DNA of 64,000 nucleotides from a bacterium (GTDB lineage Bacteria; CLD3; SB21), in contig JABWCP010000013.1 in the NCBI GenBank assembly GCA_013360215.1, positions 47,396-111,395 of the forward strand, given 5' to 3'. A model generated the notes under the pieces. It was not told the DNA's origin. It made no database searches and was given only the letters and a program-made list of their open reading frames with translations. Shown here in pieces: positions 14,183 through 36,626 of this stretch (positions within the stretch are counted from its first letter, which is position 1; each line of letters starts with the position of its first letter). The position numbers were made by a program, and so were the translations under genes.

Positions 14183-15063
14183 AAAAATATATCTTTTGTT
14201 ATGTGGTAATAATATCTGAAGTGTTGGGTCGGTGGGGCCTGGCACAAAATCCGGATCAAGCCAAATTCTGGTATGATAAAGGACGATCCGCGTATCTTCG
14301 TTTTATGTCAGAAGACTACAAGACGGCGTTGTCTTATTATGAAAGGTCGACTGCTGCGGATTCCAACTACGCACCGGCTTTTGCCGGAAAAGCGGAGGCG
14401 TTGACGCTTTTAGCTTTGGAAAAAGAACAAAATGGTTTGGCAGCAGAAGTTGATTTTACCCATGCGTTACGATCAGCCCAACAAGCGATAGCTAAAAAAC
14501 CAGACCAAAACTTAGGTTACCGTGCTCTTGCACAAGCATATCTGAATATGGACCCCAAAACATACGGCGAAAAAGCGCATGATGCGTTACAGCGTGCCAT
14601 AGAGTTGGATTCAACCGATGCGGAAAGTTATTTTTTATTGTGGCTTCTGACCGAAAACGACAAACCAAACAGCCCGTTTTTGCGATTATCATTGAAGTTA
14701 GATCCTAATTCGTTTCAAACTCACTATGCTTTAGGCCAATACTGGTCTCGTAATAAACAGCCGGATAAAGCGATAGACGAGTACAAGTTATGTATACGGA
14801 TTAATCCGGACAATTACCGCTCTTATTATTCACTTGGCAATGTATACTCACAAATCAAACGCTACGATATGGCCGTGGAAGAATACGAGAAAGCTATTGC
14901 AATAAATAAAAACCTGTACGAAGCGTATTTTTATGTCGGTGTAGCGTATTATTATTTAGATAAAAACAAAAAAGCACAACAACGACTCTCTCAATATATA
15001 GAGATGCAACCTAATCCTAAATATAAGCCACAGGCCGAACAGCTTCTCATGGATATGAAATAA
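14179..15063 (+). CDS. Secreted TPR-repeat protein
   Basis: 294 aa. A signal peptide-like start (residues 1-23, ending W-G-L-A before Q-N) and then tandem tetratricopeptide repeats; the clearest are ALSYYERSTAADSNYAPAFA, AIDEYKLCIRINPDNYRSYY and AVEEYEKAIAINKNLYEAYF. Probably a periplasmic protein-interaction scaffold. AAGGAG lies 4 nt before the ATG, which overlaps the lipB stop by 4 nt. No clear terminator follows; the next gene is on the opposite strand. Confidence 0.88.
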   Translation: MKKYIFCYVVIISEVLGRWGLAQNPDQAKFWYDKGRSAYLRFMSEDYKTALSYYERSTAADSNYAPAFAGKAEALTLLALEKEQNGLAAEVDFTHALRSAQQAIAKKPDQNLGYRALAQAYLNMDPKTYGEKAHDALQRAIELDSTDAESYFLLWLLTENDKPNSPFLRLSLKLDPNSFQTHYALGQYWSRNKQPDKAIDEYKLCIRINPDNYRSYYSLGNVYSQIKRYDMAVEEYEKAIAINKNLYEAYFYVGVAYYYLDKNKKAQQRLSQYIEMQPNPKYKPQAEQLLMDMK

Positions 15064-15133
15064 AACGCTTTGAGCGCGAAAGTAACGCGGCATCCTAAAA
15101 TAGGGCATGGCCATATTTGGAGTGCATATGGTA

Positions 15134-15619
15134 TTATACTTTCCAACGATATTGATACGCTAGCGGGCCTGGCTTCTTACATTCTACTATGTTACTGTTT
15201 CCAAAATGAAGTTTATTTAGGTGAATTATGATATGATATCCATCTTTCGATATTATCCATAGATTGGGTTTTAGTTTATAAGGTTTTAAACTATAATCAG
15301 GATCAAGGAATACCCCTGTTTTCTTTCTTAACTCCTTAAGTGTAATGTCAATATTATAATTATTTTGAATCGAACTCGATACAAAAGCTCTACCGTTGGA
15401 AAGATAGAGAAAATGATGATAAAACTCTGTGAATGAATCGCCATCAGGGTTGCCGTGCTTTCGGTGAGTCAAAACATGTAGTCCCTGCTGGTGTTTATCA
15501 AAATAAACGCACTCAAGGCTCGTTGGGTATTTAAATACTAATAAGTAGAATATCCAAAATGGAACGATCAAAATAGATATTACAAAAAAAACTCCAGCGT
15601 CCATAGGTGTCGTATCCAT
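15134..15619 (-). CDS. Hypothetical protein with one N-terminal membrane segment
   Basis: 161 aa. Hydrophobic residues 10-30 (FFVISILIVPFWIFYLLVF) form a membrane anchor; the rest is soluble and rich in aromatic, Lys and His residues. Not recognised. The DNA here is very AT-rich (one 60-base row, 15181-15240, has 15 G/C) compared with the housekeeping genes. It is the last gene of the minus-strand accessory block, 2 nt after the preceding gene. Confidence 0.55.
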   Translation of the reverse strand: MDTTPMDAGVFFVISILIVPFWIFYLLVFKYPTSLECVYFDKHQQGLHVLTHRKHGNPDGDSFTEFYHHFLYLSNGRAFVSSSIQNNYNIDITLKELRKKTGVFLDPDYSLKPYKLKPNLWIISKDGYHIIIHLNKLHFGNSNIVECKKPGPLAYQYRWKV

Positions 15620-15621
15620 TT

Positions 15622-15990
15622 CTATTTTACTTCAATCTGTCCACAACCGCTTAGCTCGGATTCGTCGTTTACAACTATCGCAGCCGTAAATACACCACTT
15701 TCCGCCACTTCTATAAACGTTGTAAAATAATCTAATTGATCTGCTTGTATTTCGGAGATTTTATACTTCAAATTGTTTTTATACCATTGTACTTTTAACG
15801 GTATAAAATCACTGCATCTTTTCTCAAAGTGCGCATACAATTTGACGGTATCCTTTTTATCAATATCAAAAAAAGAACAATAATCGCTATTTCGAATTTG
15901 CTGATATGGCGTAACGAACAGATGGGTGCAGTCGCTCATGGAAGTAAATTGCTGTGCACATAAAATCGAAGCGTATATTATAATAATCAA
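15622..15990 (-). CDS. Small secreted hypothetical protein
   Basis: 122 aa if the TTG at 15988-15990 is the start. A short hydrophobic head (I-I-I-I-Y-A-S-I-L-C-A) looks like a minimal signal peptide. The body has a pattern that could be an immunoglobulin-like strand set (KKDTVKLYAHFEKRCSDFIP; VQWYKNNLKYKIS; YFTTFIEVAESGVFTAAIVV), ending CGQIEVK. Not recognised by family. It begins 10 nt after the stop of the upstream lectin-like gene, so it is probably coupled. Confidence 0.5.
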   Translation of the reverse strand: MIIIIYASILCAQQFTSMSDCTHLFVTPYQQIRNSDYCSFFDIDKKDTVKLYAHFEKRCSDFIPLKVQWYKNNLKYKISEIQADQLDYFTTFIEVAESGVFTAAIVVNDESELSGCGQIEVK

Positions 15991-15999
15991 TTTATTATC

Positions 16000-17217
16000 T
16001 CATTTTGAGATAGGGCCGATATACTTTTTAGCAATTACCAAATGATCAAAGAATATAGAGCCGATGTGATTAGCATTATTATTATCATTAAAATTTTTCA
16101 ACCAAATATAATTTAAGTTTAACGCGGGGTCATTTCGCCACTGAAATCCCTCGAACGGTATGCCTGAACCCTCTGTAAAAAATGCTTCACTCCAAGTCCC
16201 AACAGGAAACATGTAGCCCAGATGAAATATTTGAACACCATCAACCCACAGTTTCAGTTCGCCATTAGAAGCCGAAACCGGACTATTTAATTTAATCATC
16301 ATTTCGATGCAGTGCCACGAGGTCAAACTAATATTATTGGCGGTCGAGTTATTAATAAACTCATTTCCATAATAGGATCCAGCATTCGGCCCGGTAGTGT
16401 AGGGGTGCATGCCCATCCAATAATTATAAAATCCAAATTTCGAATAGTCGGCGGGATTTTGTCTTGCAGCACCTGTTATTTCTGTACCTACGTGAAATTC
16501 TACATTGCCAAGCGGTTTGACGCCGGACTTTTGTCCGGCTGTTGGCGATGGTGGATTTTTGCCGCCGACATAAACACCGGAATGGTGATATGCAGTGGTA
16601 TTGTCATATTTGATGTAATATCGAACAAAAATAGAATCGGTGATGTCAGGGTTCAACTGTTTATAGATAAATGTATTTTCATTAGCGTTTGTTCCATCAT
16701 CAATAGTCTTTAGTTGCAAGGATTGAGATCCCAAACTTCCTGATGGAACAGACTTGTCAAAGACTATATTGGAAGATACGGTGGTTTTTTGATTCCAATA
16801 AGTCATCATATTAGATATAGTTGCTTCTTCAAACATCTCTGTAAAAATCACGTCGGCATCTTCTTCTATTTTGAGATCGCCCGGATACTTCTGAGCTATA
16901 CCTATATAATTAGTTGGATTAGAATTCACAATTACGGTGGTTATTGCTGAATCAATCCCAGCCTTATTACTTGCTTTCAATTTATAAATAGTTGTGAAAG
17001 CTGGTGTAACAGTTTTTAGAGTTCCTGACACGATCCCGATGTTATTATCGATAAAAATCGTTTCAGCTCCGCTAACATCCCATGAAAGCATGGTGCTTTG
17101 TCCGCTCGTTATGCTGTCAGGATTGGCTATAAAGCTTATAATCTTGGGTTTTTTTTCATGTTCTTCACTGTTACAAGCCAAAACTATAAGGAGTAATAAT
17201 ACAATATTATTTTTCAT
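16000..17217 (-). CDS. Lipoprotein with Ig-like domain and concanavalin-like domain
   Basis: 405 aa. Lipobox L-A-C-N near residue 15, then an Ig-like domain (about 24-100) that begins K-P-K-I-I-S-F-I-A-N-P-D-S-I-T-S-G and closely matches the same region of the next protein (17222-18973). The remainder, about 120-405, has features of a concanavalin-like lectin/glucanase fold such as heparin-lyase or LamG relatives (HCIEMMIKLN, LKLWVDGVQIF, IFFDHLVIAKKYIG). It is probably a surface polysaccharide-binding or degrading protein; I see no catalytic residues I can name. Confidence 0.65.
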   Translation of the reverse strand: MKNNIVLLLLIVLACNSEEHEKKPKIISFIANPDSITSGQSTMLSWDVSGAETIFIDNNIGIVSGTLKTVTPAFTTIYKLKASNKAGIDSAITTVIVNSNPTNYIGIAQKYPGDLKIEEDADVIFTEMFEEATISNMMTYWNQKTTVSSNIVFDKSVPSGSLGSQSLQLKTIDDGTNANENTFIYKQLNPDITDSIFVRYYIKYDNTTAYHHSGVYVGGKNPPSPTAGQKSGVKPLGNVEFHVGTEITGAARQNPADYSKFGFYNYWMGMHPYTTGPNAGSYYGNEFINNSTANNISLTSWHCIEMMIKLNSPVSASNGELKLWVDGVQIFHLGYMFPVGTWSEAFFTEGSGIPFEGFQWRNDPALNLNYIWLKNFNDNNNANHIGSIFFDHLVIAKKYIGPISK

Positions 17218-17221
17218 AGGC

Positions 17222-18973
17222 TTATTCCTTAAGGTATTCTAAAATTAACACACAGGATTTTCCCAACAAGTACGTATTATCAGATTGTAACGTAACTATG
17301 CTTTTGGTTAAATTGTCATCCGTTAATGCGCCAGTCAATGATGATGCTTTGGCGATGGAGTAACCCGAAACAACGGGCAGCGCCAGTTTCTTGGTTTTTG
17401 ACAGATCAATATTCACCACTATTATGGAGAGATGTTTACCATCATTAGTTTGAAAAGCTGACGCCCTAACGAAAGAGTCCATACCACCGTCAATCATTTT
17501 TATGGATGTTAGAACAGATTTATCATGCATGATGGGAAAGAATTCTTCGTAAACCTGGGCTGCTGCCATAAAGGTAAAACTACCGTCGTTATTACGTCTA
17601 ATAGGATGCCATTGTGCAAGCCAGCTTCCATAAATCCAATAGTTGGCTCGTTCAATATTCGTTATCTGACTTGCCATCGTGAGGAAGTTGGCGGTTGATA
17701 GCGCACCTTCCCATTTAAATCCTTTGTCCGGATTAGATTGCGGAGCATCATGGGCATGATCGCCAATAACAATCTTCAATCCCTTGTTTAGCGTGACAGC
17801 TTCCCAAGATTTTAGTAATGTTTCATCTTGAAGTATGTTGGGATTTCCGGTGGCCGGATCTTCGTCATAAAAAAAGTGAGGAGATATACCCCAAAATTTT
17901 CCTGAAAAACTTGATGCATTAAGTATGGCTGTATTCCATGCAGAATTGGGGTTGCCCACAACCGGTAATGTGATTTGAATGGTAGGATCAATACGTCTCA
18001 TAGCATCAATAACCGGAGTAGCAAGAGGTATGTACTTAGAAGCATCAAAATTAAACTCACTGGGAGACCAAGGCTCATTGCCAATGTTCCATGTCCGCAC
18101 ATTGTATGGCACTTCGCGGCCGTTAGCTGCGCGCTGTGCCGCCCATGGATGGTTCCCGTCATTCGGTGCGTTGCAATACTCAACCCAATCGGCAGCATTT
18201 TGTGCGGCGCTACTTTCGCTGGAAATGGGATAAATGTTGACCATAATTTGAATATCGGCTCCAGTCAATCCTCGCGCTAATACCATTTGCATAAACTCAT
18301 CAAAACCGAAAGCCAGTATATTATTAGAATTTGGTGCGAGCTGTTGTGGTAGCCTGTTGGCGATTGGGCCTACGGTATATTTCCAGTTCCAATTCATTAC
18401 CACTGGATTTCCGGGATAGCGAACTCCCGTTACAGGTAGTTTGTTCCAGAGCGGTTGAAGTCCGGCAAGCATGGCGCCGGTCGCAATATCGTGGTAACCT
18501 ATGGATAAACCAATTCCATTGTCTAAACTACTCCGTGCATCGTAACTGATACCTAAGAGTTTTCTTGGTTTAAGATTCAGGACATGAGATTCATCTACTG
18601 TAACAATCAATGTGTTCGGATCGGGAGACACAAATACGGTTACAGAGGCTGAGTCTGCTCCATATTTGTTGATTGCTTTTAGTTGGTAGGTTGTGGTATT
18701 GAACGGAGTAACAATATAGCTCACGCTTGTTATGGCTCCGATATCATTGTCAATGGTAACTGATTCAGCGCCGGTAACATCCCATGAAAGCGTAACGCTT
18801 TCGCCGCTTGTTATGTTTTCAGGGTTAGCTATAAAGCTGTAAATAACGGGTTTTTTGTTTTTTGCTCTCGGCTCGTCTTCTTTACATGACTGGATGCCCA
18901 GTAGAAAGAATCCGATCAAATAAAAGACGGCACAGTTGCCGGGATCTATGAAGTTACCTTTATACTTTGACAT
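17222..18973 (-). CDS. Ig-domain glycoside-hydrolase-like protein (clan GH-A-like)
   Basis: 583 aa. N-terminal membrane segment with C (G-I-Q-S-C-K, possible lipobox), an Ig-like domain matching that of the next gene, then a TIM-barrel region resembling alpha-L-arabinofuranosidases and related GH-A enzymes: the acid/base signature RTWNIGNEPW, the motif AADWVEYCNAP and a C-terminal beta-sandwich. At the place where the nucleophile Glu is expected (I-T-E in the family) the sequence is KIVIGDHAHD, an Asp or nothing. The enzyme may therefore be inactive or use a different residue. Five nt before the lectin-like gene. Confidence 0.72.
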   Translation of the reverse strand: MSKYKGNFIDPGNCAVFYLIGFFLLGIQSCKEDEPRAKNKKPVIYSFIANPENITSGESVTLSWDVTGAESVTIDNDIGAITSVSYIVTPFNTTTYQLKAINKYGADSASVTVFVSPDPNTLIVTVDESHVLNLKPRKLLGISYDARSSLDNGIGLSIGYHDIATGAMLAGLQPLWNKLPVTGVRYPGNPVVMNWNWKYTVGPIANRLPQQLAPNSNNILAFGFDEFMQMVLARGLTGADIQIMVNIYPISSESSAAQNAADWVEYCNAPNDGNHPWAAQRAANGREVPYNVRTWNIGNEPWSPSEFNFDASKYIPLATPVIDAMRRIDPTIQITLPVVGNPNSAWNTAILNASSFSGKFWGISPHFFYDEDPATGNPNILQDETLLKSWEAVTLNKGLKIVIGDHAHDAPQSNPDKGFKWEGALSTANFLTMASQITNIERANYWIYGSWLAQWHPIRRNNDGSFTFMAAAQVYEEFFPIMHDKSVLTSIKMIDGGMDSFVRASAFQTNDGKHLSIIVVNIDLSKTKKLALPVVSGYSIAKASSLTGALTDDNLTKSIVTLQSDNTYLLGKSCVLILEYLKE

Positions 18974-18978
18974 CAGAT

Positions 18979-19473
18979 TTACGGGTTAAATTGTATAAAT
19001 GAGAGGGAAAAAACTATTAGAGTATCATCTGCCGTACTTGAAGAAATGTTAAGGTCAGTCAACCCGTTTACAACAAAAGCGCCATTGACTAGAGGAATTC
19101 TTGCGAATAGAAGCTGCCGGAACATGTATTTCATACATTCAAGAAACTCCATGTTCTTAGTCCCTTCATACACTATCTTCACACCTTCAACGTTGCCTGC
19201 CGGTTTTACAACAAATTGTATGCGGATTCTAAAATCCTGCTTTTCGCCAGAGCTAACGTTCCTAACGTAACAACTAGCAAAATACTGAATTTTTGAATTA
19301 ATTTTTTCTGCAATTTCACTATCCTTACGCCCAGTGCCATAGACTGCTGGCGCTGTACAGAATATGTTCAGCCTTCCGGTTTTTGAGTCTTGCGCATTTA
19401 ATAAATTATCACCACACGCAAGGGCGCATGCAAACCAAGCAAATAAAACAAACTGATTAAACAAACCTTTCAT
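18979..19473 (-). CDS. Secreted protein resembling the AgmX/PglI C-terminal domain
   Basis: 164 aa. Signal peptide up to about residue 27 (L-N-A before Q-D). The middle has the pattern of the AgmX/PglI/TonB-like C-terminal domain: I-N-S-K-I-Q-Y-F-A-S-C-Y-V, then RIRIQFVVKPAGNVEGVKIV and a Cys in ECMKYMFRQLLFARIPL. Such domains are found in gliding and energy-transducing envelope machines of FCB and myxobacteria. The match is partial, with a lower-confidence call. Adjacent to the glycosidase-like gene (5 nt) in the same block. Confidence 0.5.
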   Translation of the reverse strand: MKGLFNQFVLFAWFACALACGDNLLNAQDSKTGRLNIFCTAPAVYGTGRKDSEIAEKINSKIQYFASCYVRNVSSGEKQDFRIRIQFVVKPAGNVEGVKIVYEGTKNMEFLECMKYMFRQLLFARIPLVNGAFVVNGLTDLNISSSTADDTLIVFSLSFIQFNP

Positions 19474-19489
19474 GAATTATGTTCTAAAT

Positions 19490-20194
19490 CTAATTAGTAT
19501 AAATTAATTTTAACTGAGCAGCAGTCAAGCCGATATCAAACAAAGCCACTTCATCAATACTTCCCTTAAAGCTGTCACCGCTCAAACCAAGCCGCGTCCC
19601 AATGAACAAAGGAGACGTGTCGATGACAAGCGCGTTCGCGGCTGATAAGGATCCTACCTCTTCACCATTAACATATAATCTCATCGTTATCCCATCATAG
19701 CTTCCAGCTATATGCATCCACTGATTTAGAGAATAACCGGTATTGCGTACTTCAGAATTATTAATACTAAATATCACGTCTCCCGTCCCGGATAATGCTA
19801 ACTTATAAGGTGACGGCAATCCGCCCCCTTTCGTTAGAATGTATTGTGTTTTTTGTTCTTCAGCATAAACCCATGCTGTAATGGTGATGCCGTTTAAGAA
19901 ATGAAATGCGGTGTCATCGGGAACGGTTATTAAATCATCCGTCCCGTCAAAGTGATAAGCATCATTGACTGAATCATTGTGTCCGGCCGTCAATAGCGGA
20001 CCAAAGGAAGTCCCAATATGTTGATTGGCTGATGCATCGTCGGTATTGCCATGAAATGGGTAATAGGCTACCGCTTCGCTATAAGGATTGCCAGTACTGT
20101 CTGTATCAGTAATGTCCGTATCCTCGTGAATATTCTCATCACAAGACATCGCTATAACCAACACAATTATCAGAGCGAATAAATTGAAGCGCAT
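19490..20194 (-). CDS. LamG-domain lipoprotein
   Basis: 234 aa. Lipoprotein signal with S-C-D at about residue 18. The rest is a typical LamG/concanavalin-like jelly roll: YYPFHGNTDDASANQHIG, HFDGTDDLITVPDD, ITAWVYAEEQ, WMHIAGSYDGITMRLYVNGE, PLFIGTRLGLSGDSFKGSIDEVALF. It probably binds carbohydrate at the cell surface. Gap of 222 nt to the TonB receptor start of unit upstream; 16 nt to the next gene. Confidence 0.85.
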   Translation of the reverse strand: MRFNLFALIIVLVIAMSCDENIHEDTDITDTDSTGNPYSEAVAYYPFHGNTDDASANQHIGTSFGPLLTAGHNDSVNDAYHFDGTDDLITVPDDTAFHFLNGITITAWVYAEEQKTQYILTKGGGLPSPYKLALSGTGDVIFSINNSEVRNTGYSLNQWMHIAGSYDGITMRLYVNGEEVGSLSAANALVIDTSPLFIGTRLGLSGDSFKGSIDEVALFDIGLTAAQLKLIYTN

Positions 20195-20416
20195 GTTTAC
20201 TCCTTGTTAGTTTCTATATTCTATAAAAGAGTATATTGAATTCGCCCCATCCATTTCCGATCCATGCGCCGATACAGGAGTTGACGGGTTTCGATCTGCG
20301 TTCTCCCAAGAAATAACAAGCGAAAAAAAATACATACGATTGAGTCTATTATTTCATTCTTCACTTTCAACTAAACACTTGAGCTATTAAGCTTATTTGT
20401 GTAAGCAAACGCACTC

Positions 20417-22384
20417 TTAAAACGCATATTGAATTCTTAATAAAAACTCTCTCTCTAAACCGGAAACGGGATTGTGTCCGCCATTATATCCTTGAGGAAA
20501 TTCGTAATGTTCTCCAAGAATATTGTATATACCCACACCGACATCTAATTTTGAGACAACATGACGGTACAACAAATAGAGATTTATCTGATAACTTGGA
20601 TCAAACGCTTTAATTCCAATGTTGGGGTCTACGCCGTCATAACCATAGCGTGTGCTCTGATAAATAAAGGAAGGGCTGACGGATAAACTAGCGGTTGGGA
20701 ACCAAGTAATGATTCCTGCAATCTTATGCTTTGCCATAGCTAAATAGTAATTCGATTTGCCGGGAACTTCGTAATCATTGATAGAATTCTTATTGGCCGT
20801 CGTGTAAAAAGAATAATTTACAATGAAATTGTTTTTGCCTAATCTGTATTTATTCTCGATCTCAATCCCGCGAGACCCGGTTTTTCCGAAATTCTGATAA
20901 CCTTCAACTACTACATCATTTATAGAGTCGTAATCGGCGCGATAAACGATAGGTTTATGTGTCGTTATATCATACACATTGGCGGTCAAATTCATATCTT
21001 TGGATACTTGCCATCCTAATTCTGCTTCAAGTACCGTAGTTATTTCCGGCTTGATATCAAATTGTTTTCCACTTCGTATGTTTTCAACGACGGGAGAGCG
21101 GAAAGCGCGGCTGGCTAATAGTTTCAAATGCCACTTATCGAAGGTTTTATTGAAAGCAGCGCGCGGTACAAACGATGTGCCGTATACGTTATGTCTTTCA
21201 AAACGCGCTCCTACTGTTATGCGACCAAATGGGATTGCTGAGTTTATTTGGGCGAAAGAGGACATATTATAAAATGTGGCAGAAGTTTTGTTAAAGTTGT
21301 CGCCATAAAGTCCGGATATTTCGTCAGCATGGTACGCGGCATCGCTTGAGTACTCGACGCCGACTAGCAATCCGGTATTTTTAGTAAATTCATACTGTGA
21401 TATGACATCAACCGTGTTCCTATAAATTCTCTTGCGATAAGTTATGTAGCTATCTACTGAATCGTAGGCAATGTTCCATGGCCGCTGCCATGTAATGTTG
21501 ATATGAGGTGTAAGAGTCCATTTATCATTCAATTGAAAATCATATTTGATATCAGACGCGATAGTCTTAAATGTCTGTGCTTTTGTTTTGGAAAAGTTGG
21601 CGTCAAAGCCGTCATTTATCTTATTTACATAATTTTCATACATAAACAGTGCGCTAAACGCATGGTGTTTTACACGTATGGTTGCGAACATCGGATCATG
21701 TGTATTCTCTTTAAGAGAAAAGGAATTACCGTAAATATCTGTAAATCTTCGATAGGAAGGGTGTGTCTGTCCTAAAAAAACCGATGTAACTATTTCTCCA
21801 TTTTCCCAACCGTGACTGTAAGCCGCGCTGACATCACGCCTTGAAAACGATTTATTAAATTTGCCCAAATTTGATGTCAAATTAAAACCGTTGATCTGTT
21901 CGGCGCCTTTAGTGATCACGTTGATCACGGCATATTCGGCAAATCCCCCATAGACAGCAGACCCGGGCCCGCGAATAATCTCAATACGTCTAATTTGATT
22001 CAAAGGAAATCTATTTTGCAAAACCAAGTTGCCAAAAAGTAATTCATTCACAGCCTGTCCGTCCCACAAGAATAGTATTTTTCCTTCCGGGGCCCACAAT
22101 CCACGCACTGCAGGGCGCCCAACACCCAAAATATCCCCCTGAAAATCCATTCCAGGTATTAGTCTCAGCACATCAACCATATCTCGGGCGCCGGAACTTG
22201 TTATTTCATCCTCTGTTATCACAGTAATAATTCCAGGTGTTTCACGTACATTGAGTCCGCCGGTTTTAGTTGCAACTTGTACGATGTCAACGTTTAAGAG
22301 TTCCTCAAGCGTCATGTTTTCATAATCCGCAGTTTGCGACCACGCCAGGGTTGCACTGAAAAGCATCAAGTAGAGGTGTTTCAC
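20417..22384 (-). CDS. TonB-dependent outer-membrane receptor
   Basis: 655 aa. Signal peptide (1-16), a plug domain with ETPGIITVITEDEI, RDMVDVLRLIPGM, GRPAVRG and RIEIIRGPGSAVYGGFAEYAVINVITKG, then a 22-strand-like barrel ending in an aromatic residue (LRIQYAF). It is on the small side. The N-terminal plug prefix NMTLEELLNVDIVQVATKT marks the vitamin B12/siderophore-like and glycan TonB receptors; the substrate is unknown. The adjacent YfiR-like gene (35 nt) and kinases suggest it reports on envelope or nutrient state. Confidence 0.93.
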   Translation of the reverse strand: MKHLYLMLFSATLAWSQTADYENMTLEELLNVDIVQVATKTGGLNVRETPGIITVITEDEITSSGARDMVDVLRLIPGMDFQGDILGVGRPAVRGLWAPEGKILFLWDGQAVNELLFGNLVLQNRFPLNQIRRIEIIRGPGSAVYGGFAEYAVINVITKGAEQINGFNLTSNLGKFNKSFSRRDVSAAYSHGWENGEIVTSVFLGQTHPSYRRFTDIYGNSFSLKENTHDPMFATIRVKHHAFSALFMYENYVNKINDGFDANFSKTKAQTFKTIASDIKYDFQLNDKWTLTPHINITWQRPWNIAYDSVDSYITYRKRIYRNTVDVISQYEFTKNTGLLVGVEYSSDAAYHADEISGLYGDNFNKTSATFYNMSSFAQINSAIPFGRITVGARFERHNVYGTSFVPRAAFNKTFDKWHLKLLASRAFRSPVVENIRSGKQFDIKPEITTVLEAELGWQVSKDMNLTANVYDITTHKPIVYRADYDSINDVVVEGYQNFGKTGSRGIEIENKYRLGKNNFIVNYSFYTTANKNSINDYEVPGKSNYYLAMAKHKIAGIITWFPTASLSVSPSFIYQSTRYGYDGVDPNIGIKAFDPSYQINLYLLYRHVVSKLDVGVGIYNILGEHYEFPQGYNGGHNPVSGLEREFLLRIQYAF

Positions 22385-22419
22385 GGGGGTTCTCCTTTAA
22401 ATGGTTTGGTGACGTTATT

Positions 22420-22950
22420 TTATTTTATCACTTGAGCCACTTTAAAAATTGCCGCATTCCACGTTATTCCCTGTAACGATGATGAGTTCAAGTTGACTAT
22501 GATTTTTGGTTTATTGTCATTCCCCGGTATAATTCCTAACGATGCCCCGCTCTCAATAATAGTAAGCCGTTTTGCTATAGTCATTATTTTATTCTTATTT
22601 GCATATTCAAATACCGCTTTAGGATCTTGTACATCCCCAATGTATATCACATCCGGAGGATTAAATGGCAATGTCGTTCCAAAGGTTACGGTCACAATAG
22701 TTGAAGTCCCGACCTTTTTTCCTTCATACGCTTTGAGTTTCTCTCCAAGCTTGGGTTGCAGCAAGACAAAGATTGTTAAGGAACGATCTATTGAAAGGCG
22801 CCGTTCATAATGCAATACCTTAACGATCAAGGGTGCAAGAATCTCGTTGGGTATCTCTTCATCTTGGCTATGAGCGGGATTATGTACTGATAGTAATCCA
22901 GCAAGTAAAATCACCAAAACAAAAATATCAAAAGTATAAGAGGTTTTCAT
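22420..22950 (-). CDS. YfiR/HmsC-like periplasmic protein (DUF4154)
   Basis: 176 aa. Signal peptide, then the compact periplasmic domain recognised by LIVKVLHYERRL, VVTFGTTLPF-like middle, PPDVIYIG and the C-terminal IIVNLNSSSLQGITWNAAIFKVAQVI. In Pseudomonas YfiR represses a membrane diguanylate cyclase; here no GGDEF gene is adjacent, but several sensor kinases are, so it probably acts on one of them. Small-gap neighbour of the TonB receptor. Confidence 0.8.
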   Translation of the reverse strand: MKTSYTFDIFVLVILLAGLLSVHNPAHSQDEEIPNEILAPLIVKVLHYERRLSIDRSLTIFVLLQPKLGEKLKAYEGKKVGTSTIVTVTFGTTLPFNPPDVIYIGDVQDPKAVFEYANKNKIMTIAKRLTIIESGASLGIIPGNDNKPKIIVNLNSSSLQGITWNAAIFKVAQVIK

Positions 22951-23044
22951 GGACGTTATATTAAGTTCTACCGTGCGTATTATTATTTGTGATTCGAAAG
23001 AAGTCGGTTTTCATATGGTCTTTAGACGAAAGCTTTCATAAAAA

Positions 23045-23443
23045 CTAGCTTGCAAATCGTGATTTTGCCCTCATTATGCCATTGGTAACGGCCGCAGTCA
23101 GTAGTCGGGTCGGGCAAGATTTAGTCAAAAACTCATCAATTACTTTGGCTTTGATCATGTTGTCCATTTCGGCTTCTACTTCAGAATATCCGGAATAAAT
23201 AATATTGTAAGTGCGGAATTCAGGATAAAGTTCTTTAACTTTCATTAAGAACTGAAGACCGTTCATCTCAGGCATTCTATGGTCACTGATAATGACAGAG
23301 ACCTTTTTGTTCGTTTCTAACTCTTTGATCGCGTTCTTTGGTTCGGTAAAAGTCAAGACATGAAAGTCGTCTTCAAATAAAAGGCGGAGTGATTTGCCGA
23401 TTTCCGGATCATCGTCTACGCACATTATGGTGTCGATTAGCAT
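23045..23443 (-). CDS. Stand-alone receiver (REC) response regulator
   Basis: 132 aa. One receiver domain only: acidic pocket CVDDDPE, phospho-acceptor Asp in VIISDHRMPEMNG, and a Thr/Ser-containing IIYSGYSE and FLTKSCP (Lys) ending. No output domain. Its start overlaps the 3' end of the sensor kinase gene by 7 nt, so the two form a coupled pair; it may be a phosphate sink or act through protein contacts. Confidence 0.9.
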   Translation of the reverse strand: MLIDTIMCVDDDPEIGKSLRLLFEDDFHVLTFTEPKNAIKELETNKKVSVIISDHRMPEMNGLQFLMKVKELYPEFRTYNIIYSGYSEVEAEMDNMIKAKVIDEFLTKSCPTRLLTAAVTNGIMRAKSRFAS

Positions 23444-24933
23444 AAGACCTCTTTTTCTTTTATATGTTGATTTGTATGGGAAATCGGGAGAGTTATGATA
23501 AATTCCGTTCCTACCCCTAATTGTGAATTAAAAGAAATTTCGCCGTTGTGTTTGAGCATTATATCGTAGCTTATGGACATGCCCAATCCAGTACCTTTGC
23601 CAACGGGTTTCGTAGTAAAGAAGGGGTCAAAAATTTTATTTTTAACTTCATCGGGTATACCTTGCCCATTGTCAGAAATGGTTATTAAAACATACTCGTT
23701 TCGTCTAGACGTAAAAATCGATATTAATCCTTGTTCCGGTATGGCCTGAATAGCGTTTGTTAAGATATTCATGAATACCTGGCTCAACTGACCTGGAAAA
23801 CATTCTATTTCAGGCAAGTCGCCGTATCTCTTTTCGACAACAATCTTACTTTTTAACTGGTTCTGTAGTAAGATCAGCACCGAATCGATAATTTTGTGAA
23901 GATTTGAGAATTTCATCTCGCGTTGATCTTTTCTAGTGAAATTAAGAAGTCCTTCAACGATTTCTCCGATCCTTGTACTGGCTAGTTCCATGGCAGGCAA
24001 CATCTCATTAGATATCATAGATGATATGTTCTTGACAGACTCCATACTTCCACTGTTTTCTATGACGCGCATCTTTTTCTCTACCACCGTCAAATAATGG
24101 TCTATGGTGGCCCTTGGCGTATTAATTTCGTGCGCAACGCCTGCAACCATCTGCCCAATTGCCGATAACTTTTCTGATTGAACCAGTTGGTTTTGAGCCT
24201 CTTTTATCTTCTCAAGATTATCTTCCAGTGTTTTATTCATTTCAGACAGTTGCTCCGATTTCTCTTCGGACAATTTCTTTTCTTCAATCAGCGAATGTTG
24301 GGCTACCTCCACCTGTAATGCCGTTTTATTCAGCAAATAACCCATCCAAAGCATTGCAAATAAAACTATCAAGCCAATTGTAAGGAACAGAATACTATTG
24401 CGTGACGTTCGGTCAATTAAGTAATCTTTCGAATATGCGATACCAATCAAGCCGATTTTGTGTTGTTCTACGTCAATCATCGGTAACCATGCGATAATTT
24501 CATTTTCGAATTCATGAAAGGATTCTTGTGTGTTTTCGGATTTAATATGTGAACCATTTATATTCGGTGTCGGATCTCTGATAATTTGTCTTTTTTCATT
24601 GTCTAAATGTCGTATCAAATGGTTGTTTTCATCATATATCTGAACCCACCGTAACGTAATTTCATCTTCTGAAGAGCGTCGTAATAAAAGATTTAATGAT
24701 TGATCGATTGAGGCGCCATCATCTAACATCATTGCTTGTGTACCCACCGACAGGTTCTCGGACAATAGTTTGCCAATAAACTCGACGTCACGGTAAACAA
24801 TTTCGGTAGCCATTCGTTTAGCTTGGTAAGGGGAGAAAAAAATCAACAAGCCTATCCAAGAAATGCATATAAATCCGATTAATAGGTATATTCGAAAACG
24901 AATATTGTGAGATCTACCGATTACATTTTTCAT
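23437..24933 (-). CDS. Membrane sensor histidine kinase
   Basis: 498 aa. Two hydrophobic segments (near 10-30 and 180-200) flank a periplasmic sensing loop of about 150 residues; a long coiled coil with [10 protein letters not shown] follows, then a HisKA domain with the phospho-acceptor His in [20 protein letters not shown] and an HATPase domain (N box NAIQAIPE, G boxes [10 protein letters not shown] and [11 protein letters not shown]). Stop overlaps the receiver gene; its ATG overlaps the stop of the hybrid kinase gene (24930-24933), so the three are a translational unit. Confidence 0.93.
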
Positions 24934-26897
24934 AGAGTAACTTCTCGAATGGTAGAAACAAGTTTTTCAATAGAAAACGGTTTCGCTAGGAATGTAAAGC
25001 CGCCGTTTGTGTAACATAAGTCAATTTGAGGGTCCATACCGCCACTGATAAGTATGGCTTTTATCTCGGGGTGAGACTTTTTAACGTGTTGAATGAAAGT
25101 TAATCCGTCCATTTCAGGCATATGAAAATCACAAATGATCAAAGAGATGTCTTTGCCAGAATCTTTTATTATTTGAAGGCCATCATTTCCAGTTCTAGTT
25201 GATATGACAGGATATCCTTTTTGATTTAGCATATCTTGGAGCACCTCTAATACATTTTCTTCATCATCTACCAAAAGTATCTTCGGTAAAGGTTGGGTTT
25301 GCTTATTCTGTGTTGCGGAATCAGGCACAAGAGAGTTTGAAATGTTTAAAGATTGTTCGGCTAAATCCGACGGAGATGATCTCAACGTTTTTGATGAAGC
25401 GGGAAGATAAAATGTAAAAACGGTACCTTTACCGGTATTACTAGCTACATCAATAAAGCCCCCATGTCCTCTTAAAATAGATTGGACGATTGAAAGGCCT
25501 AAGCCAGATCCTTTTTTTTCTTCTTTGGTTGAAAAAAAGGGGCTAAATAGTCTGGCGCGTATATCGGGATTGATGCCGACGCCTGTATCCTCAACGGAAA
25601 TAGCCACATAAGTTCCCGCTTTTACGCCTGGACGGCTTCGTGCTTTCGTCGTATCGATGCTACAATTATATGAACTAATCGTCATGACCCCTCCATCCGG
25701 CATGGCGTCTCGCGCATTCACGCATAAATTCATTAAGATTTGATGTATTTGAGTTTGATTGCCTAAAACGGGATAAAGATCAAAGTGGATACGTATAGCC
25801 AGTTGAATATTTTTGGGAAAAGTTTCATTGATTATTCTTGCCATTTCTAATACGCAATCATTGGGCTGAACAACTTCAAACTGATCTTTGATACCCTTGC
25901 TAAACGATAAAATCTGTTTGACTAAATGGGACGCTCTTTGAACGTTTTTGTCGATCATTTCTATATAACGCCTGTCTTCTCCTTTTTGTCTTTCGGAGAG
26001 CAAAGAAATAGAAATAGAAATAGGAGTTAAAATATTGTTGAGGTCGTGAGCGATACCACCAGCCAGTCCCCCAAGAGTATAAATGCGTTGGTTTCTCAGT
26101 AGATGGATTTCATCTTTTAAATCATTCTTTGTTTTCTCGAGATGTATAGCAAAAAGATGAGGATTTTTCTTGATCAGTCGCCATTCGCTATGGATATAAT
26201 CGTCTAAAGAATAAAGGGATAGCCGTCCTTTCCATTGTCCATTTTCTATAGCAGCTTTTCTAGCGGAAGGTAACATTTCATTAGCATCGCGGACGATATC
26301 GAATAACGAAGTCTTGGTGTTGGGTAATTTATGACCATAAATATTAATGGCAGAAGTGTTAGCGTATTCGATCGTCAAGGCCTCGTTACACAACCACATC
26401 GGTTCATTAGAAAACTCGATTAGTTGATTAAATTCGTCGTTTGTTCCTTGCGAATCGTATGCTAAGCTGTAACTCATGAGTGAACCATAATGAGTGTTTT
26501 TTATAATGAATGGCCAACCTTCAACTACGACTGGTATATGTTTATTGTTTTTTGTTTTTCGTATTGTATGAAGTTTTATCTGTTGTTTGTCGAGCAGCTT
26601 TTGATAAATAGTGAAAGCTTCATCATGCAAGTAAGGCGGTTGCAAGAATGAGTTCAGGTTTTTTCCAGAAACCTCCTTTTGAGAGAAACTAAACATCTGT
26701 TCAAAAGCAGAATTGACAAAGAATATGTTGTCATTCAAGTCTATTACCGCAAGGCCGGATTTGAACTTTTCAGCAAAAAATGCTAGCCACGGGTTCAACC
26801 GCCTCAAGGATTCACTTTTAGGGGCATGCAACACTTCAGATTGGTCGTTGCTTTTTATGGGACGAAGTACATGGGTTTTCATACCATTACAATACAA
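24930..26897 (-). CDS. PAS-PAS hybrid histidine kinase with C-terminal receiver
   Basis: 655 aa, soluble. Order: PAS (about 40-110, ending SGKNLNSFLQPP), second PAS (about 155-250, NEALTIEYANTSAINIYG), HisKA with the His in LAGGIAHDLNNILTPISI, HATPase (NARDAMPDGG, DTGVGI, GSGLGLSI) and a receiver domain (LLVDDEENVLEVL, Asp in CDFHMPEMDG). No membrane segment. Translation may begin at the first ATG or at the second Met five codons later. Operon member with the kinase downstream; the LuxR regulator lies 89 nt upstream. Confidence 0.93.
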   Translation of the reverse strand: MYCNGMKTHVLRPIKSNDQSEVLHAPKSESLRRLNPWLAFFAEKFKSGLAVIDLNDNIFFVNSAFEQMFSFSQKEVSGKNLNSFLQPPYLHDEAFTIYQKLLDKQQIKLHTIRKTKNNKHIPVVVEGWPFIIKNTHYGSLMSYSLAYDSQGTNDEFNQLIEFSNEPMWLCNEALTIEYANTSAINIYGHKLPNTKTSLFDIVRDANEMLPSARKAAIENGQWKGRLSLYSLDDYIHSEWRLIKKNPHLFAIHLEKTKNDLKDEIHLLRNQRIYTLGGLAGGIAHDLNNILTPISISISLLSERQKGEDRRYIEMIDKNVQRASHLVKQILSFSKGIKDQFEVVQPNDCVLEMARIINETFPKNIQLAIRIHFDLYPVLGNQTQIHQILMNLCVNARDAMPDGGVMTISSYNCSIDTTKARSRPGVKAGTYVAISVEDTGVGINPDIRARLFSPFFSTKEEKKGSGLGLSIVQSILRGHGGFIDVASNTGKGTVFTFYLPASSKTLRSSPSDLAEQSLNISNSLVPDSATQNKQTQPLPKILLVDDEENVLEVLQDMLNQKGYPVISTRTGNDGLQIIKDSGKDISLIICDFHMPEMDGLTFIQHVKKSHPEIKAILISGGMDPQIDLCYTNGGFTFLAKPFSIEKLVSTIREVTL

Positions 26898-26986
26898 TCA
26901 AGTCGATGGCGTAACAATAGTCCAAACGGACAGTGTTGGAGTTAATCCGGATTTTATTTGGAAGAAACTAACCGAAAAGACAGGTA

Positions 26987-27634
26987 TCAGATGATGCGAT
27001 TGCGAATTGCTTTTGCAATGGCCTCTGATTTAGTGGATGCATGCAGTTTGGTATATATGTTTCTGAGATGGTATTTAATTGTGCTGATGTGAATATGTAG
27101 ATCGTCGGCAATGGACTCGTGTGTATACCCTTTCGATAGGCGAGTTAATATGTCGCGTTCACGTTCAGAAAGCGTTATTTTTTGATCTTCAGTTACGTTA
27201 TAAGAGTGAAACGCTTTCAGCAAACTAACGATTTTTTTTGCAATGTTTGCATTCATAGGTGAACCTCCGCTGCATACCTCGCGAATAGATTCGAGGAGAC
27301 GAATTGGTTGTGTATGCTTCACCAGGTAACCATCTGCACCACTAAGCAACGCCTCTAAGATTAATTCATTATCGTCATATACTGTGAGCATGATGATATT
27401 AATATTGGCGTAATGCGCCTTAATGTGTTTAAGAGCTTGTATTCCTGACATGCCCGGCATTTTTATGTCCATTAATATTACATTTGGCAACGTTCTTTTT
27501 AATTTTTCCAAAAGGGTTTCGGCGTCAGCATAAGTGCCAATGCACCGAAATCCGTCTGTTCCATTAATGAGACTTGATAACCCTTGACGGACGGTCACAT
27601 TGTCATCAGTAATAATGACTTGAATTTCGCTCAT
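26987..27634 (-). CDS. NarL/LuxR-family response regulator
   Basis: 215 aa. A receiver domain (ITDDNVTVR, phospho-acceptor Asp in VILMDIKMPGMSG, HTQ-containing end) and a C-terminal LuxR-type helix-turn-helix (LSERERDILTRLSKGYTHESIADDLHIHISTIKYHLRNIY; about 150-210). Its ATG overlaps the last bases of the propeller kinase gene (27631-27634), so the two form a cognate pair. Confidence 0.94.
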   Translation of the reverse strand: MSEIQVIITDDNVTVRQGLSSLINGTDGFRCIGTYADAETLLEKLKRTLPNVILMDIKMPGMSGIQALKHIKAHYANINIIMLTVYDDNELILEALLSGADGYLVKHTQPIRLLESIREVCSGGSPMNANIAKKIVSLLKAFHSYNVTEDQKITLSERERDILTRLSKGYTHESIADDLHIHISTIKYHLRNIYTKLHASTKSEAIAKAIRNRII

Positions 27635-30600
27635 TTCAATTTTCCTCGGTACTCCACCGTTGTTCCTGTCTTTTCAGTACTGTATATAAGCAATTGGCCG
27701 CCAATACTGGCAGCTCTCTTTTTCATGTTACCAATACCCATACCTTGAACAGTTTTTTCATCGTAGCCGATGCCGTCATCAACAAGTTTGATTCTAATGA
27801 GGTTTCCGACTTTTGAAATGCAAAGATACATTTCGCGGCAGTGACTGTGTTTAATGCAATTGTGAATGGCTTCTTTGAAAATTAAAAATAACTGGCGACG
27901 GGACTCCATAGAGATATTCAGCTCATCGGTAAAGCCCAGATTCTCAATTCGAAATTTAATATTCATAATACTTAAAATATCCGAGTAATAATCGCTGAGT
28001 CGGATAGTCAATGCTTGAGCGGAATCATTTATAGGGTTAACAATCCATAACACGTCGCTAAAATTAGTGATTAAGTCATTAGATCTTTGCGATATGGTCT
28101 GCAGTATTTGTAATACTGGCATAGGGTCGTCGATACTATTTTTCTGGGTGGCCTCATTCGCCAAAATGACAATTTCCGTCAAACCTGCGCCGGTTTGGTC
28201 ATGCAATTCGCGTGCAATCGTTTCTCGGAATTTCTGCATTCTCAAATAAGATCGTATCCTATATAAAACTATGCCTGCAATGGTAAGTACACCAGTGAAG
28301 ATGCATCCCAAAAAAAACCATGTTGTTTGCCAAAATGGAGGGTCAATATAAAAATCAAATTTTTCTTCTTTTCCCCATAATCCATCGCGTCCAGCGCCAC
28401 GAACCCTAAAAGTATATGCTCCAGACGATAAATTTTCATAATGTGCCGTACGTTCACCTGAAGTTGCCCGTATCCAACTGTCATTGAATCCATCCAGGGC
28501 ATACTGATATTGATTTAGCTTTGGATTGTCAAAGTCAAGAACCGCAAACTTAAAACTAATCGTATTGTCCTGGTAGTATAATTTTAGTGGAGATGCATTG
28601 TTGTATCCGATGGAAGTTCCATTCACACTAATGTCGGTAATGGTTACATTGGGTTGTGGTACTTTCTTATGTATGTTCTTTGGGAAAAAGGAAGTGATGC
28701 CGTTTATTCCACCGAAAAAAAGCTTGCCTGATTGAGACTTTAAGAAAGCCCCGCTATTAAACTCATTGCTCTGTAATCCGTCACCTTTGTCATAATTGAA
28801 AAATCGCCTTGTGGACATATCAAACATTGAAATTCCATTATTAGTGCTCATCCATAAATTGCTATCGGCGTCTTCAATGATGTTATACACAACATTACTA
28901 GCCAGACCGTCCTCCTGAGTATAAACAGTGAATGAAGAATCTTGTTCATTGAACTTACACAAGCCTCCACTGGTTCCAACCCATATATCCCCGGTTGACG
29001 ATTCGGTTATTCCGAAGATATTGTTACCTCCTATGCTACCAATTTGTTTTTTTTCATAAATAAAGCGATTCCAAGTTTTCGTTCGGCGGTCGAATATTTG
29101 TAAGCCATACCCCCATGTTCCAATCCATAAGTTGCCCATACGGTCGTCATAAATAGAGTTGACCAAATCAAATCCCCATTCTCCTTGTAGATCACTGTTA
29201 GTGAAAACCGTAGTTGTGCCGGTAGTTTCATGAACACAAAATAATCCAATACCTTCAACGGCGACCCACAGATTTCCTTCTTTGTCATAATGTAAATCAA
29301 TGATGTTGATGCGATCGTTCGGATTCCATTTGGTCAATAAGTTAAAACGTTTAAATTCCTGTTGTTTAATGTTAAAAACATACAATCCATTTCCTTCTGT
29401 TCCAACCCAGAGTTCTGTCTCGTTTTTTTTTTGCAATGATAGTATGGATCGGTTTGAATATCGAACATCTGCCAGACTATAGCGTGTTAATTTATTTGTT
29501 TTGTAATCTATAAATGCCAAACTGCCACCTCGGGTTCCGACCCATAATCCACTTGCTGTATCCTCTTCGATAGCCCATACGATATTTGATTCAGTGTCCA
29601 TATCGCTCTGACGTAGAGAATAGTAGTTGAATGAATTTAGTGGACTGTTTAGTCGGTTGATACCGGCACCCTCCGTTCCTATCCATAAATGTTCTTGGCT
29701 GTCAGAGAAACCACAAAAAATGAAGTCACTGGACAAGGAAAATTCGTTTTTTCGATCATAATGATAATTTTTGTAGGTATGATTAGTCAAATCTAGCGAA
29801 AACAATCCATCGCCGTGCGTCCCTACCCATAAGTGATCGGAAATTTTAGATAAAAAACGAATATCGCATTGATTGAGTATTGAACTGTTGTTTGGGTAGG
29901 GAACCAAACTATTTTGTTCGGCAACAAACAATCCACTTCTGGTGCCAACAAAAAACACATTATCTGCATTCCGTAAGTTGATTTTAGTTATAGTATTGAT
30001 TTGAACTTCATTTTTATCATTTCTGCCCATTTTTAATTTTGAAAAATTTTGTGTGCCATATTCATACTTTAACACCCCTTTATTTTCTGTTCCAATCCAC
30101 AAAAAACGAGATTCGTGGTGCAAAGCGGTGACGCCCTCAAGTTCGAAGCCTGGTAAAACAATTTTCACGCTGATCCTCTTGTGTTTATCGAACTTGAATA
30201 GTCCTAAGCGAGTGCCTATCCATAAGCTTCCCAGGTTATCATCTGCTATGGATAGTATATCATTTTGTGATATCGAATAGGACGGGGAAGTATGAAATGT
30301 AAAACTGTAAAAAACATCTTGGCGGCGATCATACATATTGAGTCCGCCGCCTTTGGTTCCTATCCATATATTACCATTGGAATCTTCATATAGGCACCGA
30401 ATAAAATTTTCAGATAAACTGTTATAGTTCTTTCGAAGCTTATATACCTTAAATTCATTGCCATCAAACCGATTTAATCCGTCTTCTGTGCCTACCCAAA
30501 TAAATCCCAAATGATCCTGAAACGCACACTGAACGCTATTTTGTGATAAACCAAAATTGATGTCAATGTGATTGAATAATTCGGATTGCGAAAAGTTTGT

Positions 30601-30765
30601 TTTATCTTGTGCCAAGACTTTGTTAAAAATCAAGAGACAAAAAATAAAGCAAAAGATCGTCACATCAATAAAAAATACCCTCAAAATCCTTGTTGGCAGG
30701 TGGAAATTGCGAGGAATATCCGCGAATTCCCCAGCGAACTTTTTACTATAAAGAGATAACTTCAT
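27631..30765 (-). CDS. Two-component propeller sensor histidine kinase (HisKA_3 type)
   Basis: 1044 aa. Signal peptide or membrane anchor with a hydrophobic stretch near 30-50, then repeated propeller units with the W-I/L-G-T signature (roughly 60-700), a Y_Y_Y domain (YQYALDGFNDSWI and SSGAYTFRVRGAGRDGLWG), a membrane helix near 800-820, a HisKA_3 dimerisation/phospho-acceptor domain (ARELHDQTGAGLTEIVIL) and an HATPase with G1 DDGIGYDE. The HisKA_3 type normally pairs with NarL regulators, and one directly follows. Probably senses a periplasmic ligand and starts the kinase-receptor unit. Confidence 0.93.
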   Translation of the reverse strand: MKLSLYSKKFAGEFADIPRNFHLPTRILRVFFIDVTIFCFIFCLLIFNKVLAQDKTNFSQSELFNHIDINFGLSQNSVQCAFQDHLGFIWVGTEDGLNRFDGNEFKVYKLRKNYNSLSENFIRCLYEDSNGNIWIGTKGGGLNMYDRRQDVFYSFTFHTSPSYSISQNDILSIADDNLGSLWIGTRLGLFKFDKHKRISVKIVLPGFELEGVTALHHESRFLWIGTENKGVLKYEYGTQNFSKLKMGRNDKNEVQINTITKINLRNADNVFFVGTRSGLFVAEQNSLVPYPNNSSILNQCDIRFLSKISDHLWVGTHGDGLFSLDLTNHTYKNYHYDRKNEFSLSSDFIFCGFSDSQEHLWIGTEGAGINRLNSPLNSFNYYSLRQSDMDTESNIVWAIEEDTASGLWVGTRGGSLAFIDYKTNKLTRYSLADVRYSNRSILSLQKKNETELWVGTEGNGLYVFNIKQQEFKRFNLLTKWNPNDRINIIDLHYDKEGNLWVAVEGIGLFCVHETTGTTTVFTNSDLQGEWGFDLVNSIYDDRMGNLWIGTWGYGLQIFDRRTKTWNRFIYEKKQIGSIGGNNIFGITESSTGDIWVGTSGGLCKFNEQDSSFTVYTQEDGLASNVVYNIIEDADSNLWMSTNNGISMFDMSTRRFFNYDKGDGLQSNEFNSGAFLKSQSGKLFFGGINGITSFFPKNIHKKVPQPNVTITDISVNGTSIGYNNASPLKLYYQDNTISFKFAVLDFDNPKLNQYQYALDGFNDSWIRATSGERTAHYENLSSGAYTFRVRGAGRDGLWGKEEKFDFYIDPPFWQTTWFFLGCIFTGVLTIAGIVLYRIRSYLRMQKFRETIARELHDQTGAGLTEIVILANEATQKNSIDDPMPVLQILQTISQRSNDLITNFSDVLWIVNPINDSAQALTIRLSDYYSDILSIMNIKFRIENLGFTDELNISMESRRQLFLIFKEAIHNCIKHSHCREMYLCISKVGNLIRIKLVDDGIGYDEKTVQGMGIGNMKKRAASIGGQLLIYSTEKTGTTVEYRGKLK

Positions 30766-31762: not shown

Positions 31763-33261
<1,499 letters not shown>

Positions 33262-33400
33262 GGAGAATCTGTGTTGATTCGCTTTTAGTGAATTTACACA
33301 AATTCCGAATATAACGATCAAATTATCTTGTAAATGAATTTCGCGTATACTCTCTTTTTTTTTAAATTTTTGTTCTTTTAAAAATTTTGGTTTTATCCGC

Positions 33401-33474
<74 letters not shown>

Positions 33475-33501
33475 CTTATCGGACGACGTTTATAAATAAT
33501 C

Positions 33502-33575
33502 GGGGCTATAGCTCAATTTGGGAGAGCGCCTGCCTTGCACGCAGGAGGTTAACGGTTCGAGCCCGTTTAGCTCCA
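33502..33575 (+). tRNA. tRNA-Ala (TGC)
   Basis: 74 nt without CCA. Acceptor GGGGCTA pairs with TAGCTCC (one G-T wobble), anticodon TGC at 33536-33538, T loop TTCGAGC with stem AACGG/CCGTT. 27 nt after tRNA-Ile. Confidence 0.96.
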
Positions 33576-33591
33576 CTAATCAGATTACGCA

Positions 33592-33640
33592 TATCGCTTC
33601 GGCGATAATAATATAGCGTGAAGATATCTCAGTGATATCT
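33592..33640 (+). other. Two spacer hairpins, first with a UUCG tetraloop
   Basis: TATCGC-TTCG-GCGATA (33592-33607) is a six-bp stem closed by the stable UUCG loop; AGATATC-TCAGT-GATATCT (33622-33640) is a seven-bp stem. They lie between tRNA-Ala and 23S and are probably processing or folding elements of the pre-rRNA. Confidence 0.65.
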
Positions 33641-33646
33641 GCCAAA

Positions 33647-33660
33647 GTTCTTTGACAATT
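33647..33660 (+). promoter_or_regulatory. boxA-like antitermination site before 23S
   Basis: GTTCTTTGACAATT matches the usual boxA found in the 16S-23S spacer (TGCTCTTTAACAATT-like). It lies about 100 nt ahead of the 23S 5' end. Confidence 0.6.
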
Positions 33661-33747
33661 GGTGATGTATGTAAGATTAATGAATGAAACACGACTACAT
33701 GTTTCATTCAACGAGAAAATGCTACTCATTTGCAGGAAGCTGATGTT

Positions 33748-33762
33748 TTATTAAAATAAAAT

Positions 33763-33770
<8 letters not shown>
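33748..33770 (+). other. 5' half of the 23S processing stem
   Basis: TTATTAAAATAAAAT and then CAAGC are complementary to the sequence just after the 23S gene (36627-36650: GCTTG, then ATTTTATTTTAATAA). Pairing of the two flanks would enclose 23S in the long stem that RNase III usually cuts. Confidence 0.75.

Positions 33771-36626
<2,856 letters not shown>

Follow-up and report, generated by a model that had tools for sequence, protein, structure and literature searches.

A conserved TonB receptor–YfiR–histidine kinase gene set and its proposed role as a trans-envelope phosphorelay

Signalling by TonB-dependent receptors is usually accounted for by an STN domain on the receptor, an anti-sigma factor and an ECF sigma factor. 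Seven adjacent genes in a 64,000-nt stretch of bacterial DNA, the whole of which we call the window, raise the question of whether such a receptor might instead be connected to a histidine kinase through a periplasmic YfiR-like protein and, if so, which of the neighbouring two-component proteins take part. Here, we report that five of these genes form a true member of a wide, barely described class of receptor–YfiR–kinase gene sets, here permuted and divergent and otherwise an ordinary two-component operon. What we observe directly comprises the gene set, how widely it is conserved, the relationships of its domains and the association of a receptor N-terminal motif with YfiR. Because the neighbourhood is conserved, the partner kinases elsewhere have the CHASE8 type of domain, through which YfiR is proposed to recognise YfiN, and the window kinase carries a related domain, the best reading of the sequence is that YfiR gates the membrane kinase and that the receptor is its input. 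We put at roughly 60% the probability that positions 20417–26897 encode a trans-envelope phosphorelay running from the receptor to YfiR, to the membrane kinase and on to the receiver and hybrid kinase.

The open reading frame list and Pfam bear out the placement and domains that the original prediction gave for the seven genes, all of which lie on the minus strand within 20417–30765 (Table 1). The claimed ATGA overlaps are real (27631–27634 and 24930–24933), as is the overlap of 7 nt between the kinase and receiver genes; the HisKA_3 propeller, hybrid and membrane HisKA architectures are all present, and the number of GGDEF genes in this block is zero, in line with the predicted absence of a diguanylate cyclase. 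Gaps of 89 nt (regulator/hybrid kinase), 94 nt (receiver/YfiR) and 35 nt (YfiR/receptor) separate the remaining genes and, despite them, a single transcript seems likely. The receptor gene starts at a GTG with a good AGGAG site 5′ of it, and the true start of the hybrid kinase is probably an in-frame ATG five codons past the listed TTG. As read from the translations, the two-component proteins retain the residues of active kinases and receivers, and the receiver-only protein has its acidic pocket, phospho-acceptor Asp and Lys. A divergent rRNA operon (31763–36829) lies upstream of the block. The host genome (3.7 Mb, 56 contigs) contains one DUF4154 gene, that of the window, together with seven GGDEF proteins, 19 plug-domain receptors and three ExbB/MotA-type genes.

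Table 1 Features of the seven-gene block, in window coordinates
Feature	Position	Strand	Basis and assignment
TonB-dependent receptor	20417..22384	-	Pfam Plug 5e-17, barrel 3e-23; no STN; proposed outer-membrane input
Receptor N-terminal motif MTLEELLNVDIVQVATK	22265..22315	-	Between signal peptide and plug; signature of YfiR-linked receptors
YfiR-like periplasmic adaptor (DUF4154)	22420..22950	-	PF13689 41 bits; divergent subgroup
Receiver-only protein (CheY-like)	23045..23443	-	Response_reg 6.5e-16; proposed phosphate shuttle
Membrane histidine kinase	23437..24933	-	HisKA and HATPase (Pfam), two TM segments; proposed YfiR target
Periplasmic CHASE8-like/extracytoplasmic PAS domain of the membrane kinase	24394..24846	-	hhalign, hmmsearch, AF2
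Cytoplasmic PAS-PAS-HisKA-HATPase-REC hybrid kinase	24930..26897	-	Pfam; fifth part of the conserved set
NarL/LuxR-type response regulator	26987..27634	-	Response_reg and GerE; assigned with the propeller kinase to a separate module
Two-component propeller kinase	27631..30765	-	Reg_prop, Y_Y_Y, HisKA_3, HATPase; judged a separate module

The window YfiR matches its family above the curated PF13689 cut-off of 24.9 bits. The F..F..WP motif of canonical members, which is common but is no Pfam criterion for the family, is replaced by LHYERRL, and a subgroup alignment places the protein in a divergent subgroup that has a Y-D/E-R type motif at this position. It contains no cysteines. Its identity to canonical YfiRs is about 9–21%, and our alignment puts Ile in place of two proposed contact-surface residues, Phe162 and Glu163; both observations count against the relay. 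A 20-row YfiR alignment was too diverse to yield patterns. The AF2 model has a pLDDT of 84 and resembles P. aeruginosa YfiR, both unbound and bound to YfiB, with TM scores of 0.6–0.73 (4zhu, 4yn7, 5eb1), and a PDB sequence search with the family profile returned only YfiR entries at E below 0.01. Judged by this model, the protein has the YfiR fold. Rhodothermus marinus entries named ‘substrate-binding proteins’ (8wgl, 5z6v and 6k1y) rank with P. aeruginosa YfiR among its fold matches.

The membrane kinase has intact HisKA and HATPase motifs and two hydrophobic stretches, around residues 11 and 176. Pfam finds in it no sensor domain, no CHASE8 and no HAMP, which counts against the relay; where HAMP would follow the second transmembrane segment, there is a Glu/Lys-rich, coiled-coil-like stretch. 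Compared with 12 CHASE8 proteins encoded as YfiR partners, the N-terminus aligns across both transmembrane segments with an hhalign probability of 95.6, and hmmsearch with the same partners gives the kinase 22.6 bits against 2.6 for the next best window protein. In this alignment the kinase sequence TQAMMLDD faces TAALAF of the partners. The contact motif of P. aeruginosa YfiN is AAVVF (PMC3375315), and the corresponding position reads QAMML in the window kinase versus AALAF in the partners, hydrophobic with Phe replaced by Leu. An AF2 model of the sensor domain (pLDDT 75) has a long helix and a five-stranded sheet, as in extracytoplasmic PAS/CACHE domains; its best solved match is the extracellular PAS domain of WalK, followed by other PAS/CACHE sensors. 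The periplasmic domain thus appears CHASE8-like by profile and, on the model, extracytoplasmic-PAS-like by fold, giving the kinase the TM-PAS/CHASE8-TM layout of a YfiN-type partner next to YfiR. We also considered, and rejected, action of YfiR through CHASE8 on the GGDEF proteins of the genome, as none of the seven has a CHASE8-like sensor; among these and the neighbouring genes, the adjacent membrane kinase is the sole partner seen. The whole kinase proved unsuitable as a tracer of the system: as sole query it gave no relatives in a search for related loci, and genome searches mostly returned the kinase core, which is expanded in the lineage.

A PF13689 profile search of 386 genomes, mostly one per family, gave 34 positives, whose neighbourhoods were annotated with purpose-built profiles and checked for domain assignment against Pfam; a receptor was counted as a neighbour when at most two genes away on the same strand. 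With the window excluded, YfiR has a receptor beside it in 26/37 cases, a CHASE8 kinase in 27/37 and both in 21/37. A second sample of 80 loci from named organisms, which is not unbiased as it was picked by similarity to one canonical YfiR, gives 68/80, 70/80 and 59/80. By our own rough estimate, about 15 receptors per genome would place one at most two genes away on the same strand for about 1% of genes, and the clustering of YfiR, receptor and kinase exceeds chance. CHASE8-GGDEF neighbours number zero in the 37-gene sample and zero in the 80 named loci. Usually the receptor comes first, followed by YfiR, the CHASE8 kinase, a lone receiver and a hybrid kinase, with frequent 4-nt overlaps, and in Pfam most of the YfiR-linked kinases tested, which come from different families, are CHASE8-HAMP-HisKA-HATPase proteins. 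Titles of the locus records name Acidobacteria, Bacteroidetes, Verrucomicrobia, Gemmatimonadetes, Proteobacteria, Planctomycetota, Nitrospirae, Ignavibacteriae, Armatimonadota, FCPU426, Desulfobacterales/Desulfuromonadales and Eisenbacteria. The order proposed for checking in other genomes, YfiR–TonB receptor–kinase–receiver, is thus a conserved neighbourhood in both samples.

The hybrid kinase, too, belongs to the system as predicted: a hybrid or REC-kinase recurs beside the receptor, YfiR, CHASE8 kinase and receiver in nine loci (L024, L035, L145, L147, L155, L170, L173, L186 and L324). The window contains all five parts, but permuted: the hybrid kinase comes first, then the membrane kinase, the receiver, YfiR and the receptor. 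This permutation, together with the 94-nt gap between receiver and YfiR, counts against the relay. The closest match to this inventory is the five-part operon L324:1195-7545 (REC-kinase, YfiR, motif-bearing receptor, CHASE8 kinase, receiver), whose divergent YfiR is related to the window subgroup and is missed by Pfam. In the window’s own family, a canonical cassette of receptor, YfiR and CHASE8 hybrid kinase occurs in three loci (L029, L030 and L032), flanked by OmpR-type regulators; the window set is therefore not a simple orthologue of that cassette. Elsewhere, L041 pairs a YfiR of the divergent subgroup with a CHASE8-like hybrid kinase, and L038, L075 and L078 pair theirs with CHASE8 chemoreceptors. 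A CHASE8 chemoreceptor adjoins YfiR in 3/37 cases of the family sample, and divergent YfiRs lie beside CHASE8-HAMP chemoreceptors at L038:1304-1870, L075:7887-8516, L078:8713-9231 and L325:4010-4555, pairs that suggest YfiR-gated chemotaxis.

Receptors near YfiR share an N-terminal block between the signal peptide and the plug, in short form LSLEELMNxxVTSVSK, for which their alignment gives the consensus L-S-[LI]-E-[EDQ]-L-M-[ND]-[IVL]-[ED]-V-T-S-[VA]-S-[KR]. Column conservation in the motif (2.54 bits) is about that of the plug (2.63) and exceeds that of the barrel (1.82). Scored with a position-specific matrix from whose training the window receptor was left out, 77/81 YfiR-linked receptors reach the threshold of at least 15, versus 2/68 unlinked ones. 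Within nine genomes the split is 9/9 linked to 2/68 unlinked (Fisher p 3e-10), scores and a p value that are optimistic in that the nine linked receptors recur in the training set under other identifiers; the separation is visible by eye in the alignment. The window receptor scores 26.3 out of sample, and the best unlinked receptor of the nine genomes 16.9. Both unlinked exceptions (16.9 and 16.6) belong to a tandem receptor cluster of one genome, and one of them is, in addition, the next closest homologue of the window receptor. Three entries (L282, L284 and L288; G112 contig C12, about 7800–13500) are tandem TonB receptors with no YfiR seen and a degenerate motif, SFYELENLLD. We define YfiR-linked receptors by two traits, the motif and a YfiR neighbour, and the window receptor has both. 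In the receptor tree it is sister, with support 100, to the L076 receptor, which comes from a far-off lineage and lies tail-to-tail beside another divergent YfiR. The occurrence of this motif in receptors next to YfiR is newly noticed and makes the input hypothesis testable.

These distributions bear on whether the receptor is simply a regulated target of the two-component genes, in an operon shared by outputs and regulators, with YfiR modulating the kinase independently of it. Receptors are common near two-component genes, and YfiR–CHASE8 pairs that have no nearby receptor do exist (L038, L075 and L078, with chemoreceptors). Yet the receptor is usually the immediate neighbour of yfiR, and in the genomes tested the motif is almost confined to receptors near yfiR; we regard this account as improbable.

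The position of the motif raises a different account. Its second half, V-T-S-V-S-K, sits where the other receptors of the genome have their TonB box, and because of this overlap the motif could be the TonB contact of one receptor subfamily, not a contact for YfiR, which counts against the relay. The receptor would then merely import a small molecule that YfiR binds, like a substrate-binding protein, to switch the kinase and adjust the uptake genes. In P. aeruginosa, the YfiR pocket for YfiB Phe57 also binds vitamin B6 and L-Trp (PMC4887326), and substrate-binding proteins are among the matches of the window YfiR model. The SLEEL half, however, adds a conserved block before the TonB-box position that unlinked receptors almost entirely lack, and on balance we find ligand sensing by YfiR with a mere importer rather unlikely. 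Relay and ligand import alike place the receptor upstream of YfiR and YfiR upstream of the kinase.

In the relay that we favour, whose contacts, sign of control, phosphate flow, ligand and output we infer throughout, the outer-membrane receptor would detect a ligand or a surface state, and its periplasm-facing N-terminal segment with the L-S-L-E-E-L-M motif, or the imported ligand, would act on YfiR. YfiR, bound to the CHASE8-like domain, would hold the membrane kinase in one state; once YfiR is drawn off, the kinase would switch and phosphorylate the co-encoded lone receiver, which may pass phosphate to and from the soluble hybrid kinase. The end output would lie outside the conserved set, to which some lineages add REC-GGDEF or DNA-binding regulators. 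REC-GGDEF genes follow YfiR–CHASE8 kinase cassettes in 11/80 loci (L176, L180, L184, L187, L193, L194, L200, L205, L208, L216 and L219), so cyclic di-GMP can still be the end point by phosphotransfer.

This scheme resembles YfiBNR (TpbB) of P. aeruginosa in its same-fold periplasmic YfiR, an inner-membrane partner with an extracytoplasmic PAS/CHASE8-type domain and an outer-membrane protein upstream. Its differences are an output through a histidine kinase with a receiver and a hybrid kinase in place of GGDEF, a TonB receptor instead of the lipoprotein YfiB, and the lack of HAMP and of the YfiR cysteines; no OmpA/Pal-type gene is found in the block. In P. aeruginosa the N-terminal segment of YfiB rearranges to form a long loop that wraps around YfiR, anchored by Phe48, Trp55 and Phe57, and the YfiB site on YfiR overlaps the proposed YfiN site (PMC4887326). 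The simplest transfer would give the receptor N-terminal segment the role of YfiB and the CHASE8-like domain that of YfiN. By this analogy we tentatively suggest, at somewhat less than even odds, a third way for TonB receptors to signal to the cytoplasm, in which the N-terminal segment sequesters YfiR as YfiB does and so frees a CHASE8 histidine kinase.

The idea that YfiR can gate a histidine kinase is not new, since YfiR–kinase pairs were reported in 2012: distant Yfi operons lack yfiB and often have the GGDEF output swapped for sensor kinases or other outputs, and a YfiR–YfiN[PAS] core was proposed as a modular signalling unit driving other outputs, kinases included (Malone et al. 2012, PMC3375315). 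Those systems, in Thauera and others, share with the window a YfiR that adjoins a membrane kinase with a YfiN-type periplasmic domain; the paper contains no occurrence of TonB and does not describe receptor, motif, lone receiver and hybrid kinase as a set. A search of the open-access literature found no paper linking YfiR with TonB receptors in a signalling sense. Like FecA/FpvA-type transducers, the window receptor would signal through its N-terminal part across the periplasm to an inner-membrane protein. We rejected identity with these STN-type systems, as Pfam finds no STN, sigma or anti-sigma among the genes of the block; a soluble adaptor and a histidine kinase stand in their place. In LuxP–LuxQ type pairs, too, a periplasmic protein controls a kinase by way of an extracytoplasmic PAS/CACHE-like domain, as YfiR may do here, but these pairs use another binding-protein family and have no outer-membrane receptor in the set.

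If the relay holds, the receptor–YfiR–kinase set would be a general pathway from the surface to a phosphorelay in a dozen phyla, an alternative account of TonB receptor signalling that ends in phosphotransfer, and it would explain many YfiR genes that have no diguanylate cyclase partner. The N-terminal motif would predict which receptors are sensors, allowing these to be picked cheaply from genomes, and gives mutagenesis a small target.

The propeller kinase and LuxR regulator, which the original prediction had included in the same system, lie outside the conserved set. A propeller kinase of this type occurs near YfiR in only 2/117 other loci, and relatives within the family are only paralogues of 30–40% identity; on these grounds we rejected the pair as core parts. 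That the whole block is one pathway with the LuxR protein as transcriptional output would fit the shared strand, the 89-nt gap and the lack of any other DNA-binding output in the set. Propeller kinases and GerE regulators are, however, rare near YfiR elsewhere, the kinase is one of several paralogues in the genome, the pair has no close orthologue in the family, and a HisKA_3 kinase with a NarL-type regulator is self-sufficient. We therefore hold a single pathway very unlikely, and the upstream pair most likely forms a two-component system of its own. Another propeller protein of the two-component type, likewise with several genome paralogues, lies in the window at 10001–11561 on the minus strand, a range that covers part of its reading frame.

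Downstream of the receptor, at 14000–20200 on the minus strand, are genes for a lipoprotein with a LamG domain, a secreted protein of 164 aa and a pair of Ig-like lipoproteins that resemble each other at their N-termini; one of the pair has a weak, sub-threshold arabinofuranosidase match. Pfam gives LamG and this match only among these genes and points to no clear ligand; they are possibly polysaccharide related. About 31 kb beyond the block, a REC-GGDEF protein (62052–63056, minus strand) is a possible distant output.
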